Made by a program: the position numbers and the translations under genes. DNA of 56,184 bases from Eubacteriales bacterium (GTDB taxonomy: Bacteria; Bacillota; Clostridia; Peptostreptococcales; Acidaminobacteraceae). Of this stretch, positions 12,902 to 38,656 are shown one piece after another; positions within the stretch are counted from its first letter, which is position 1, and each line of letters begins with the position of its first letter. The notes under the pieces were generated by a model, which was not told the origin of the DNA, did no database searches, and saw nothing but the letters and a program-made list of their open reading frames with translations. Location: positions 1 through 56,184 of the forward strand of contig DAOUQP010000002.1 in assembly GCA_030625575.1 (NCBI GenBank), written 5' to 3'.

Positions 12902-13603
12902 ATGGGAAAAACATTTAAACCAGGTTGCAAACCTCCGACTCCTGAGGTGAAACCTAAAGAAGTAGAAATTGAAGAAAAAATTATTGAAGAAGGTGGGATA
13001 AGTATGATTAGTGTAGGTCAAGCAGCTCCTGATTTTACGTTGAATGCGTATCATAAAGGAGAATTTAAACAATTTAGTTTATCGGAATTTAAAGGAAAAT
13101 GGGTATTGCTATGCTTTTATCCAGGAGATTTCACTTTCGTCTGAGCTACTGAGGTTTCAGCAGTTGCTGAAAACGCAAAAAGGCTTTACGATATGGATGT
13201 GGAAATTTTATCTGTAAGTGTAGATAGTATCTTTGTACATAAGATGTGGAATGATAATGAATTGAGTAAAATGGTAGACGGAGGAGTTCCTTTCCCAATG
13301 CTGTCCGATGGTGGTGGAAAGGTAGGAACTATGTACGGTGTATATAATGAAGAAGGTGGAGTTGAAAATAGAGGTAGATTTATCATCGATCCAGATGGAG
13401 TTATTCAAGGATATGAAGTGCTTACACCTCCAGTAGGAAGAAATATCGAGGAAACTATTCGTCAAGTAAAAGCATTCCAATTAGTACGTGAATCTGGTGG
13501 AACTGAGGCAACTCCTGCAGAGTGGACTCCTGGCAAACCGACTCTTAAACCAGGACCTGATTTGGTAGGAAATGTGTGGAAAGTATGGTCACCTAAAAAA
13601 TAA
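12902..13603 (+). CDS. prxU: Selenocysteine-containing peroxiredoxin (AhpC/PrxU type)
   Basis: A 233-residue peroxidase that is read through an in-frame TGA at 13142-13144 as selenocysteine 81. The context FYPGDFTFV-U-ATEVSAVAENA is the peroxidatic-Cys motif of AhpC-type peroxiredoxins with Sec replacing Cys, and the same frame continues through typical sequence (VSVDSIFVHKMW, PFPMLSD, RGRFIIDPDG). It reduces H2O2 or organic peroxides. The usual C-terminal resolving motif VCPANW appears as ATPAEW, so the resolving Cys is missing; remaining Cys are C9 and C71. A Lys/Glu/Pro-rich extension of about 34 residues precedes the canonical domain start. ATG 12902 has GAGGGG upstream; an internal ATG at 13004 with AAGGTGGG could give a shorter form. 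Confidence 0.93.
13142..13172 (+). promoter_or_regulatory. Selenocysteine UGA and candidate bacterial SECIS hairpin
   Basis: Ten bases after the TGA, TTTCAGC (13155-13161) pairs with GCTGAAA (13166-13172) around the loop AGTT. Bacterial SECIS elements are stem-loops inside the coding region immediately downstream of UGA that bind SelB; position and size fit. The fold is from base pairing only. Confidence 0.6.
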
Positions 13604-15632: not shown

Positions 15633-16643
15633 ATGAAAGATATAATTATTTTGGCAATAGAAACAAGTTGTGATGAAACTTCTGTTGCGATAATAAAAAA
15701 CGGTAGAGAAATTTTATCTAATGTAATTTATACGCAGATAGATATACATAAAAAATTCGGTGGAGTAGTGCCGGAAATCGCGTCAAGGAAACACATTGAA
15801 AAAATTGATTTGATATTTGCTCAATCATTAGAAGAAAGTGGTTTGAATTTCAAGGATTTGGATGCCATTGCAGTAACGTATGGACCTGGTCTTGTAGGTG
15901 CTTTGTTGGTTGGAATGAGCTATGCAAAAGCATTGGCTTTTGGACTGGGGATTCCACTGATTCCGGTAAATCACATTGATGGGCATATTGCAGCAAATTA
16001 TCTTGCATTTCCGGATTTAGAACCACCTTATATTGCTTTGATAGTTTCTGGAGGGCATACTCATATCATCGATGTATTGGGTTATGGAGAGTACAAGGTG
16101 TTGGGGAGAACGAGAGATGATGCCGTTGGAGAAGCGTTCGATAAAGTCGCTAGAACTCTAGGATTCCCATATCCCGGTGGACCATACATTGATAAGGCAG
16201 CAAAAGATGGAAATAAAGAAGCGATAAAATTTCCTAGAACTTATCTTGAAAAAGGATCCTTTGATTTTAGTTTTTCGGGTATTAAATCTTCTGTTTTGAA
16301 TTATTTAAATAGCATGAAGATGAAAGGTATCGAAGTTAACGCCAATGATGTCGCCGCATCTTTTCAAGAAGCTGTTGTTGATGTTTTAATCGAAAAAATC
16401 ATTAGTGCTTCTTTGAAAATGAATCATAAAGAAATTATTATCGCCGGTGGAGTCGCTGCAAATTCCAATTTAAGAAAAAGGTTGAAAGAAGAAGCGAAAA
16501 TTCATCATTTAGATGTTTTTTATCCGCCTTTAAGCTTATGTACTGATAATGCGGCTATGATCGGAGCGGCTGCATATTATCAATTTAAAAAAGGAATATT
16601 CGCAAATCTCGATTTAAATTCTGTGCCAAATTTGAAACTTTAA
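15633..16643 (+). CDS. tsaD: tRNA threonylcarbamoyladenosine transferase TsaD
   Basis: The 336-residue catalytic subunit that moves the threonylcarbamoyl group onto tRNA A37. Landmarks are [26 protein letters not shown], the metal ligands in NHIDGH (H114, H118), VSGGHTHI and the C-terminal [18 protein letters not shown] 15633 follows AGGAG. It is the last gene of the t6A cluster, directly upstream of the DnaA-box-like repeats. Confidence 0.97.
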
Positions 16644-16645
16644 CC

Positions 16646-16793
16646 TGTGGATAAATAACACTAAAATATTATGTAAACTAAAAAATGTTGAAAAAATTGT
16701 GGATTAGCCTGTGGATAAAGTGGATAACTTATAGAATTATTGCTATATCTAACTTTTAGATGTGGAAAAACAATTCACTGAAATTGTGGATAA
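16646..16793 (+). promoter_or_regulatory. Cluster of DnaA-box-like nonamers
   Basis: The 210-base gap after tsaD carries three exact TGTGGATAA nonamers (16646-16654, 16710-16718, 16785-16793) and three near matches: TGTGGATTA (16698-16706), AGTGGATAA (16719-16727) and TGTGGAAAA (16761-16769), all in the same orientation. TGTGGATAA is the complement of the consensus DnaA box TTATCCACA. An A/T-only stretch follows at about 16800-16829. No dnaA, dnaN or rpmH is here and the flanking genes converge, so I read it as a secondary DnaA-binding cluster, not as an established origin. Confidence 0.6.
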
Positions 16794-16820
16794 GATTGAA
16801 ATTATAAAATTAATTTCATA

Positions 16821-16855
16821 AAAAAAAAAGCCCTAAGACTTTTATCTTTGGGCTT
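16821..16855 (-). terminator. Terminator of acpP
   Basis: AAGCCC (16828-16833) pairs with GGGCTT (16850-16855), with AAGA/TCTT continuing the stem after one mismatch. On the minus strand it runs into eight or more T residues. It may also stop read-through from tsaD. Confidence 0.85.
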
Positions 16856-17084
16856 ATTCTAATTCATTTTCCAAGAATTCCATAATTTCAGAAACTTTTC
16901 TAATTTTTTCAGCGATATCATCCGGAATTTCTATATCAAATTCACCTTCAACAGCTATGATGATTTCTGCTGCATCAATCGAATCGGCATTTAAATCATC
17001 CACTAAATGAGTGTCATATGTTATGCTATCTAAATCTTTTACACCCATCTGCTCTGCAATAATTTTTTGTACAAGTTCAAACAT
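16854..17084 (-). CDS. acpP: Acyl carrier protein
   Basis: A 76-residue acidic four-helix protein that carries acyl chains in fatty-acid synthesis. The phosphopantetheine Ser is in LNADSIDAAEII; canonical ACPs read ADSLDxVEL, so the site is slightly divergent but intact. It stands alone, with its own promoter and terminator, away from the fab genes. GGGGGG before the ATG is a fair ribosome site. Confidence 0.93.
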   Translation of the reverse strand: MFELVQKIIAEQMGVKDLDSITYDTHLVDDLNADSIDAAEIIIAVEGEFDIEIPDDIAEKIRKVSEIMEFLENELE

Positions 17085-17139: not shown

Positions 17140-19038
17140 CTATAATAAATTTTCCCATTCTTTATAAAGTATCATAAGTTCATTTTCCAATAATGAAAGT
17201 TCTTTATTAAGTTCCATTAATTCTACTTGATTGGAATAGATTTCTTCTTGGCATTGCAATTCGTGAATCGCAGCAATTCGTGATTCCGTATCATGAATAT
17301 TTTTCTCTAAATCTGCAGTCTTTTTCTTTTTATCTTTAATATTTTTTTTGTTTTCACGTTCTTGTTTTGATAAATCTTTTCGTTCAGTTTTTGAAATTTT
17401 ATTAGGCGCATCATTATTTTGAGCATATTGTTCCATCTGATTTTTTTTGTAAAAGTAATAATCATAATTGCCCAAGTATTCTGTTAGACCATTTTCATCA
17501 AGTTCATATATTTTATTGCAAACCTTGTTGAGAAAATATCTATCATGAGATATAGCTAACATTGTGCCGTTATAATTAAAGATTGCATTTTCTAAAGTCT
17601 CTCTAGATATGATATCTAAATGATTTGTAGGTTCATCCAATAAAAGAAAATTGTTCTTAGAAAGCATCAATTTAAGCAGTGAGAGTCTTGATTTTTCTCC
17701 GCCGCTTAGTATCCCGATTTCCTTAAAAACATCATCACCTGTAAATAAGAATGAACCAAGGTACTTGCGAAGGTCGATTTCGTCTACTAATGGCAGTAGA
17801 GCGTGTATTTCTTCTAATAATGTATTGTTGTCTTCAATATTTTGCAAGTCTTGATCATAATAGCCTTTTGTTACATGATGTCCTAGTTGAAAATAACCAG
17901 TATCGGGTTTTAGTTTATTTACAAGAATTTTAAATAATGTTGATTTTCCAATGCCGTTTTTTCCAATAAATCCAATTTTATCTCCTTTAAAGACTTCAAA
18001 AGAAATGTTATTGAATAGAGGACTTTTATCGTAGCTTTTACTTAATTCATTGACACTGAGAACATTATTACCACTAGGAATTCCAATATCAAAGGTTAAA
18101 TTGATATTTTTATTAAGCCAAAAGGGTTTTTGCACTCTTTCGATTTTTTCAAGTTTGAACTCTCTACTTCTCGCTCGTTTTGCTAATTTTTCTGTACCAG
18201 TTTGTTTATATTTTCTGATAAGTTCTTCTTCTTTTTTTATGAGATTCTGATTATTTTGGTAATGTTTTATTTCATTTTCATAATTAATTCTTTTTTGACG
18301 CATGAATTCACTGTAATTGCCTTTATAAAGAGTCCCTTTGGTGCTCTCCAATTCAAGGATTCTGGTAACTATTTTATCTAAGAAGTATCTATCATGTGAG
18401 ACTATTACAACTGAGCCCAGATAATTCGAAAGATAATTTTCCAGCCATTTAACTGAGTCGATATCAAGGTGATTTGTAGGCTCGTCAAGAAGCAACAAAT
18501 CATATTCTGTTAATAGCAATTTCGCTAGATTTAAACGTGTTTTTTGACCGCCGCTTAAGGTTTTGATTGTGCGATTAAAATCATCTTCTGAAAAGCCGAG
18601 GCCGATTAAAACACCTCTTGCTTTGCTATGATACGCATATCCGTTTAGCTGTGTGAAAGTTTCTGTTAGATTTGAATACTCATCAATTAATTCGTTGTCA
18701 AAAGGATTATCTGTTAATAAATTTTCAATTTTTCTCATTTTGTTTTCTATATTTATTAAATGTTCAAAAGGTTCCAGACAATAATCATATAGATTGATGT
18801 CATCACTTACTGAATCGTCTTGTTTAAGATATCCGATATTTATATCTTTTGCAGAAAAAATCTGACCATCGTCAAAAGTGATTCTCCCTGTAATTATATT
18901 GAATAGAGTTGATTTACCAGCACCGTTGTTGCCGACAATACCAACTTTTTCACCAGTATTTATGGTTAAGGATATTTTATCTAATACGGTAGTGATACCA
19001 TATGATTTAACAATGTTATTTAGAGTAACTAGAATCAT
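17140..19038 (-). CDS. ABC-F family ATP-binding protein (ribosome-associated type)
   Basis: A 632-residue protein with two ATPase domains and no membrane segment. Domain one has Walker A GNNGAGKST (36-44), signature LSGGQKTR and LLDEPTNHLDI; domain two has GKNGIGKST, LSGGEKSR and LLDEPTNHLDI. A linker rich in basic residues (KYKQTGTEKLAKRARSREFK) separates them, and the C-terminal 90 residues form a charged coiled coil. This is ABC-F architecture; members act on the ribosome as translation factors or antibiotic-protection proteins. The long tail resembles the YdiF/Uup-like housekeeping type, and nothing here specifically argues for drug resistance. Transcribed divergently from rex. Confidence 0.92.
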   Translation of the reverse strand: MILVTLNNIVKSYGITTVLDKISLTINTGEKVGIVGNNGAGKSTLFNIITGRITFDDGQIFSAKDINIGYLKQDDSVSDDINLYDYCLEPFEHLINIENKMRKIENLLTDNPFDNELIDEYSNLTETFTQLNGYAYHSKARGVLIGLGFSEDDFNRTIKTLSGGQKTRLNLAKLLLTEYDLLLLDEPTNHLDIDSVKWLENYLSNYLGSVVIVSHDRYFLDKIVTRILELESTKGTLYKGNYSEFMRQKRINYENEIKHYQNNQNLIKKEEELIRKYKQTGTEKLAKRARSREFKLEKIERVQKPFWLNKNINLTFDIGIPSGNNVLSVNELSKSYDKSPLFNNISFEVFKGDKIGFIGKNGIGKSTLFKILVNKLKPDTGYFQLGHHVTKGYYDQDLQNIEDNNTLLEEIHALLPLVDEIDLRKYLGSFLFTGDDVFKEIGILSGGEKSRLSLLKLMLSKNNFLLLDEPTNHLDIISRETLENAIFNYNGTMLAISHDRYFLNKVCNKIYELDENGLTEYLGNYDYYFYKKNQMEQYAQNNDAPNKISKTERKDLSKQERENKKNIKDKKKKTADLEKNIHDTESRIAAIHELQCQEEIYSNQVELMELNKELSLLENELMILYKEWENLL

Positions 19039-19172: not shown

Positions 19173-19799
19173 ATGACAAATAATAAAGTATCTATGGCCG
19201 TTATTAGAAGACTGCCAAAATATCATAGATATTTAAAAGAAATGCTGGAAAATGGTATCAATAGAATTTCATCCAAGGAACTAAGCGATGTCATTGGATT
19301 TACTGCTTCTCAGATACGACAGGATTTAAATAATTTTGGAGGATTTGGGCAACAGGGATATGGATATAATGTCGAAGATTTATATAATGAAATAGGTCAG
19401 ATTTTAGGATTGGTTAAAACTTATAATACGATTATTATTGGTGCCGGTAATTTAGGTCAGGCATTGGCTAATTATAATTTTGCTTCACATGGATTTAAGT
19501 TAGAGGGAATGTTTGATATTAATCCTAAAGTTACTGGACTTCGTATTAGAGATGTTGAGATTAAGGATATGGATTTACTAGAAGAAGAAATAAAGAACAA
19601 AAATATTGATATCGCCATTATTTGTACGAGTAGAGACGCAGCACAATCAGTTGCAGATGACTTGGCAAAATACGGCATTAAAGCTATATGGAATTTTACT
19701 CCGGTAGATCTTAAAATAAATAATCATGAAGTAATAGTTGAAAATGTACATTTAATTGATAGTCTACTGACACTTTCATATTTTTTAAAAGAAAAATAA
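19173..19799 (+). CDS. rex: Redox-sensing transcriptional repressor Rex
   Basis: A 208-residue homodimeric repressor that leaves DNA when NADH/NAD+ rises. The N-terminal winged helix (about 1-80) includes SSKELSDVIGFTASQIRQDL, and the Rossmann domain has IIGAGNLGQAL for dinucleotide binding. The C-terminal helix that swaps between subunits is present (LIDSLLTLSYFLKE). ATG 19173 follows GAGGTG. It has its own promoter with an overlapping operator match and a terminator, so it is monocistronic and probably autoregulated. Confidence 0.97.
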   Translation: MTNNKVSMAVIRRLPKYHRYLKEMLENGINRISSKELSDVIGFTASQIRQDLNNFGGFGQQGYGYNVEDLYNEIGQILGLVKTYNTIIIGAGNLGQALANYNFASHGFKLEGMFDINPKVTGLRIRDVEIKDMDLLEEEIKNKNIDIAIICTSRDAAQSVADDLAKYGIKAIWNFTPVDLKINNHEVIVENVHLIDSLLTLSYFLKEK

Positions 19800-37003: not shown

Positions 37004-37030
37004 TTGACAATTGGAGAGAAATTTGATAAT
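37004..37030 (+). promoter_or_regulatory. Promoter of guaBA
   Basis: TTGACA (37004-37009) and GATAAT (37025-37030) with a 15-base spacer; the spacer is short, but the predicted start (about 37037) falls just ahead of the riboswitch. Confidence 0.65.
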
Positions 37031-37047
37031 TTTATATGCAATTATAG

Positions 37048-38656
<1,609 letters not shown>

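Follow-up and report, generated by a model that had tools for sequence, protein, structure and literature searches.

In Escherichia coli, datA promotes ATP hydrolysis by DnaA and DARS promotes ADP release. How replication is timed in Gram-positive bacteria, which do without the datA/DARS/Hda machinery of E. coli, is unsettled. For Bacillus subtilis, a genome-wide in vitro survey of DnaA binding placed gcp/ydiF ("downstream of gcp; downstream of ydiF") fourth in its list of binding regions, with 10 sites and an apparent Kd of 0.15 uM for ATP-DnaA and 0.33 uM for ADP-DnaA (PMC4447404). At 55 nM, DNA recovery from this region was 16-fold higher with ATP-DnaA; the region ranks with the strongest that DnaA binds in this genome, and its ATP preference is among the largest of the strong sites (PMC4447404). 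Two reviews describe B. subtilis as initiating early when all six non-oriC clusters are deleted (PMC5295017, PMC13220808).

The window, which is the whole stretch of 56,184 nucleotides analysed here, carries in the gap between tsaD and acpP an array of six nonamers that can, with near certainty, be called a DnaA-box cluster. The first-pass annotation had described three exact and three near matches facing one direction at positions 16646-16793, and all six were found again on the plus strand. Box 1 (16646-16654) is an exact TGTGGATAA with all nine positions invariant when the window is aligned to four relatives; box 2 (16698-16706; TGTGGATTA, one mismatch) lies 52 bp past box 1, and box 3 (16710-16718; exact) 12 bp past box 2. 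Box 4 (16719-16727; AGTGGATAA, one mismatch) abuts box 3 and closes a 12+9 triplet seen again in relatives, box 5 (16761-16769; TGTGGAAAA, one mismatch) follows 42 bp past box 4, and box 6 (16785-16793) is again exact. The TGTGGA core is invariant in boxes 2, 3, 5 and 6.

With six boxes in 148 bp, this is the top 150-bp stretch of the window, and no second stretch of this length with six boxes occurs anywhere else in it. The impression that the density exceeds chance was borne out by 100 second-order Markov simulations of the window, in which the maximum number of boxes per 150 bp was four and did not exceed two in 97 simulations. As in clusters of the B. subtilis type, several boxes are thus packed within a few hundred bp at a density above chance. 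The window overall is not enriched (27 matches to TGTGGATAA with at most one mismatch in 56 kb, versus 20.5 expected), and a genome-wide count, which had been proposed along with the original description, gave 31 exact copies in the source assembly, approximately one per 74 kb, of which 3 are located here. This assembly is an incomplete MAG of 2.29 Mb in 215 contigs (73.6% complete). The probability that the array is an artefact of chance or base composition is close to nil: the gap is rich in A and T, with 25% GC, and the assembly as a whole shows no excess of the nonamer (31 copies versus 30 of its reverse), but the simulated density, the tsaD-linked recurrence in relatives and the conservation of boxes compared with spacers are all opposed to such an origin, and clusters were found in genomes of at least 50% GC as well.

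Exact copies are bunched at two other sites of the assembly, three on contig C201 and two on contig C30. The second dense cluster (C201, 188-292; locus L095) comprises three exact and two near boxes; a cobalamin riboswitch (RF00174) and an operon for a btuF-like ABC transporter lie just downstream of it. The third (C30, 15728-15840; locus L096, 1729-1840) has two exact and two near boxes between glutaredoxin-like and recU-like genes and adjoins rsmA- and rnmV-like genes, all named by eye from their translations.

The gap is flanked by two convergent genes, as had been noted from the open reading frames and is confirmed by their NCBIfam identities. On the plus strand, tsaD (gcp/ydiE; 15633-16643) matches TIGR03723 with 449 bits versus a cut-off of 296, and the cluster stays linked to this gene in relatives. 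On the minus strand, acpP (16854-17084) encodes an acyl carrier protein scoring above the cut-offs of TIGR00517 and NF002148 and ends in an intrinsic terminator (16820-16860, minus strand; fold -14.8 kcal/mol, z -2.95). The stretch after the boxes, originally described as consisting of A and T only, is indeed an A/T-rich run, but it contains one C and is in part the U-tail of the acpP terminator. The gene order (by NCBIfam) is tsaE-tsaB-rimI-tsaD, then acpP and an ABC-F ATPase gene on the opposite strand (17140-19038, minus strand; above the cut-off of NF000355), and then rex, the redox-sensing repressor (19173-19799, plus strand; above the cut-off of NF003990), as the next gene in the conserved order. 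The ABC-F gene occupies the position of ydiF in B. subtilis, and from position and family it would be the ydiF ortholog; rex lies beyond the ABC-F gene in B. subtilis too. The suggestion that the array is a titrating or regulatory cluster of the kind found outside oriC in Bacillus is supported, and compared with the gene order reported for B. subtilis, in which gcp equals tsaD, the array is at the same locus as the gcp/ydiF cluster (PMC4447404).

Two further features of the window are a peroxiredoxin-like gene (12902-13603) whose in-frame TGA falls on the catalytic cysteine position (FTFV-U-ATE), with a short, perfectly paired hairpin, GTTTCAGCAGTTGCTGAAAAC, after it, and a purine riboswitch at 37029-37130 (RF00167, 82.5 bits). 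The former probably encodes a selenocysteine peroxiredoxin.

Conservation of the tsaD-acpP gap in relatives had been named as a check, and clusters after tsaD indeed recur in many clostridia. Our base sample comprised 80 named tsaD loci, to which genomes of the family and the phylum of the window were added; organism names are those of the record titles, some of which are probably wrong. At the 80 named loci, the box frequency was 1.72 per 500 bp after tsaD versus 0.24 elsewhere. When these loci were cut into 250-bp tiles, at least three boxes were present in 21 of the 78 tiles that directly follow the tsaD stop codon, in 2 of the 76 next ones and in 3 of the 3,116 remaining tiles, all of them outside these first 500 bp; six scrambled nonamers, used as a control for the tile count, gave 0 to 2. 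At least three boxes within 600 bp after tsaD were present at 65 of 162 non-identical loci. Caloramator and Tissierella are examples of culturable relatives that carry the cluster. Broken down by source, clusters were found at 25 of 27 usable non-duplicate loci of the family, at 15 of 29 of the phylum sample and at none of 27 of the class reached through locus L085, mostly small-genome relatives. In a search of 41 family genomes for close box pairs we obtained 88 matches genome-wide versus 16 with the reversed pattern, and 33 of the 88 (in 24 genomes) are located just past tsaD; in one genome whose dnaA was located (G001), two of the remaining matches flank dnaA.

No cluster after tsaD was found in Clostridium proper, in most Peptostreptococcaceae and in Acetoanaerobium, nor in the plasmid-collection records of Listeria, Staphylococcus, Paenibacillus and Enterococcus. 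At L018/L108 the cluster begins 674 bp past tsaD, and its seeming absence there is due to the larger gap. On a tree of 169 TsaD proteins, which can only approximate the species tree, the presence of the cluster requires 15 changes, compared with a mean of 53.2 and a minimum of 45 for shuffled labels, which indicates that it was largely inherited with the lineage. The distribution would fit either an old element that was lost several times or one that was gained repeatedly. Missing from several Bacillota groups, the cluster is not essential across the phylum, and its correspondence with that of B. subtilis could be the result of convergence. In the part of the literature on clostridia that was covered, no description of a tsaD-linked cluster was found.

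Some of the records deserve comment. Locus L017, titled "delta proteobacterium ML8_F1", shows 69% TsaD identity and the gene order and cluster of the window; this title is probably wrong, as both TsaD identity and gene order place the locus among these clostridia. Three PLSDB "plasmid" records of 2.6-2.9 Mb (L256, L257 and L258; Acetoanaerobium, Listeria and Paenibacillus) bear tsaD and are therefore probably mislabelled chromosomes.

The boxes are strongly oriented and regularly spaced. Across the 65 clusters, 301 boxes face the same direction as tsaD and 28 the opposite one. Five loci of the same family with a GC content of approximately 45-49% (L134-L136, L139, L141) represent a two-sided variant, in which two or three boxes in forward direction lie at the tsaD stop codon and two reverse boxes approximately 50 bp further on. 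Spacings of 9 (abutting), 12, 20-22, 42-44 and 51-53 bp are repeated across clusters, and the 12+9 triplet occurs in 19 of 65 clusters versus 0.55 expected under random placement. The periodicity of the spacings peaks at 10.5-11 bp (R 0.55 and 0.53), with p-values that are inflated by the shared ancestry of the loci. In the fine alignment of the window and four relatives, two of which have 52-54% GC, 35 of the 36 positions in the TGTGGA cores of the six boxes do not vary, compared with 21 of 125 in the remaining gap before the terminator (Fisher p 2e-17 for whole boxes versus between-box sequence). The flank beyond the array is not conserved in relatives.

Like a bacterial oriC, the locus combines clustered DnaA boxes with adjacent AT-rich DNA. 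However, it differs from an oriC in that there is no adjoining dnaA or dnaN, no skew switch and no evident conservation of an unwinding element, and the site has neither the neighbourhood of an origin nor a switch in GC skew. The first-pass annotation had considered a standard origin unlikely on account of the absence of dnaA, dnaN and rpmH from the vicinity, and this holds: no such genes adjoin the array, and dnaA of the relatives is found elsewhere. As dnaA was not found in the source assembly, the distance to oriC had to be taken from relatives. In 22 complete genomes the distance between tsaD and dnaA is 10-36% of the chromosome, with tsaD on one arm or the other, and the 14 of them that have clusters of at least three boxes cover the same 10-36%, which places the array outside oriC as in clusters of the B. 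subtilis type. In the complete family member G027 this distance is 10%, and the B. subtilis cluster is similarly oriC-proximal (628 kb of 4.2 Mb, approximately 15% by the published coordinate). Because tsaD genes without a cluster fall into the same range, the position belongs to tsaD as such and does not prove a role of the cluster.

GC skew, calculated as originally proposed, is positive throughout the window and never changes sign, and thus neither an origin nor a terminus is visible in it. The reading of the array as part of a replication origin, either secondary (as suggested initially) or ancestral, gained no support from the skew or from the dnaA positions in relatives and is extremely improbable. 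The AT-rich DNA beside the boxes and a scan for DnaA-trios would speak for it (trio-like runs past the array reach a length of at most 4 in the window, and the longest run averages 2.24 at the loci versus 1.82 in controls, an excess that could be explained by AT content), but the AT stretch is partly the tail of a terminator, the flank past the array is not conserved, and the dnaA regions of the relatives, located elsewhere, bear the same nonamer in their own flanks. A secondary origin, an RNA element and promoter control were all rejected as candidates, with inverted boxes in some relatives, drifting sequence between the boxes and both genes ending at this site.

A structural or segregation role, in which the array would contribute to folding of the origin region or to DnaA bridging with oriC, appears very unlikely. 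Polarity relative to replication is conserved, with tsaD being co-directional in 21 of 22 complete genomes, but co-direction is common for essential genes, which makes this argument weak, and the variable distance to oriC argues against such a role. Only slightly less improbable is a DnaA roadblock that would control transcription of a neighbour through read-through from tsaD or acpP. Its setting would be suitable, since the array lies between convergent genes, and the B. subtilis survey presents DnaA as a transcription factor too, at some sites (PMC4447404). However, tsaD and acpP both end here, which renders regulation of a neighbouring promoter unlikely, and acpP has its own terminator. In addition, the cluster remains with tsaD where ydiF and rex have moved, are inverted or are absent from the stretch read, and where no acpP or ydiF is nearby; it is thus not tied to a downstream gene.

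The convergent flanks, the absence of a skew switch, the lack of evident conservation of an unwinding element and the conserved, ordered array fit a DnaA-binding sink, and we consider the gap cluster to be most likely a passive, high-affinity DnaA-titrating site outside oriC. Six boxes in the same direction near whole helical turns would place several DnaA molecules on one face of the DNA, and by analogy the loaded protein would probably be ATP-DnaA bound cooperatively. Located in the oriC-proximal half of the chromosome, as in relatives, the cluster would be duplicated some time after each initiation, and would then soak up free DnaA and help to delay re-initiation, a role already put forward for the clusters of B. 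subtilis. We infer DnaA binding, cooperativity and the delay of re-initiation from B. subtilis, and a preference for ATP-DnaA at the window cluster is likewise presumed.

The strong polarity counts against titration, as simple titration does not require it, and together with the phasing it may leave room for a more active role. The cluster might change the nucleotide state of DnaA like datA and DARS of E. coli, with its fixed geometry as the working part, a reading we regard as unlikely. Spacing and direction are conserved beyond the needs of passive titration, and the B. subtilis cluster prefers ATP-DnaA (PMC4447404), but the geometry may just serve cooperative binding, homologues of IHF, Hda and DiaA are stated to be absent from B. 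subtilis (PMC13220808), and a catalytic cluster in Bacillota was not found described in the literature covered. Equally unlikely is the wider proposal that the cluster at the 3' end of tsaD is a widespread and old Bacillota element for control whose one-way, helix-phased boxes would assemble a DnaA filament that actively resets or locks DnaA, as a clostridial counterpart of datA/DARS and more than a passive sink. Passive titration and active regulation of DnaA could be compared in the natural variants (present, shortened, two-sided and absent), which represent a ready test set.

The non-oriC type of cluster is already known from B. subtilis; what appears to be new here is its breadth in clostridia, its polarity and its helical phasing. 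That a cluster with fixed polarity and helical spacing keeps a single chromosomal address in B. subtilis and across many families of clostridia suggests that the control of initiation has long included non-origin clusters. With datA of E. coli the window cluster shares the organization as an intergenic, non-origin group of DnaA boxes and, presumably, the effect of limiting initiation, whereas datA acts together with IHF to promote ATP hydrolysis and has an unrelated genomic location. DARS1 and DARS2 resemble it in that their DnaA boxes, likewise located outside oriC, are compactly arranged and conserved; they reactivate DnaA, which the window cluster is not known to do. The B. subtilis gcp/ydiF region comprises 10 sites compared with six boxes predicted from the sequence here, and lacks the extra acpP gene in the gap, but in both cases tsaD and an ABC-F gene face each other with their 3' ends and several DnaA boxes lie in between.
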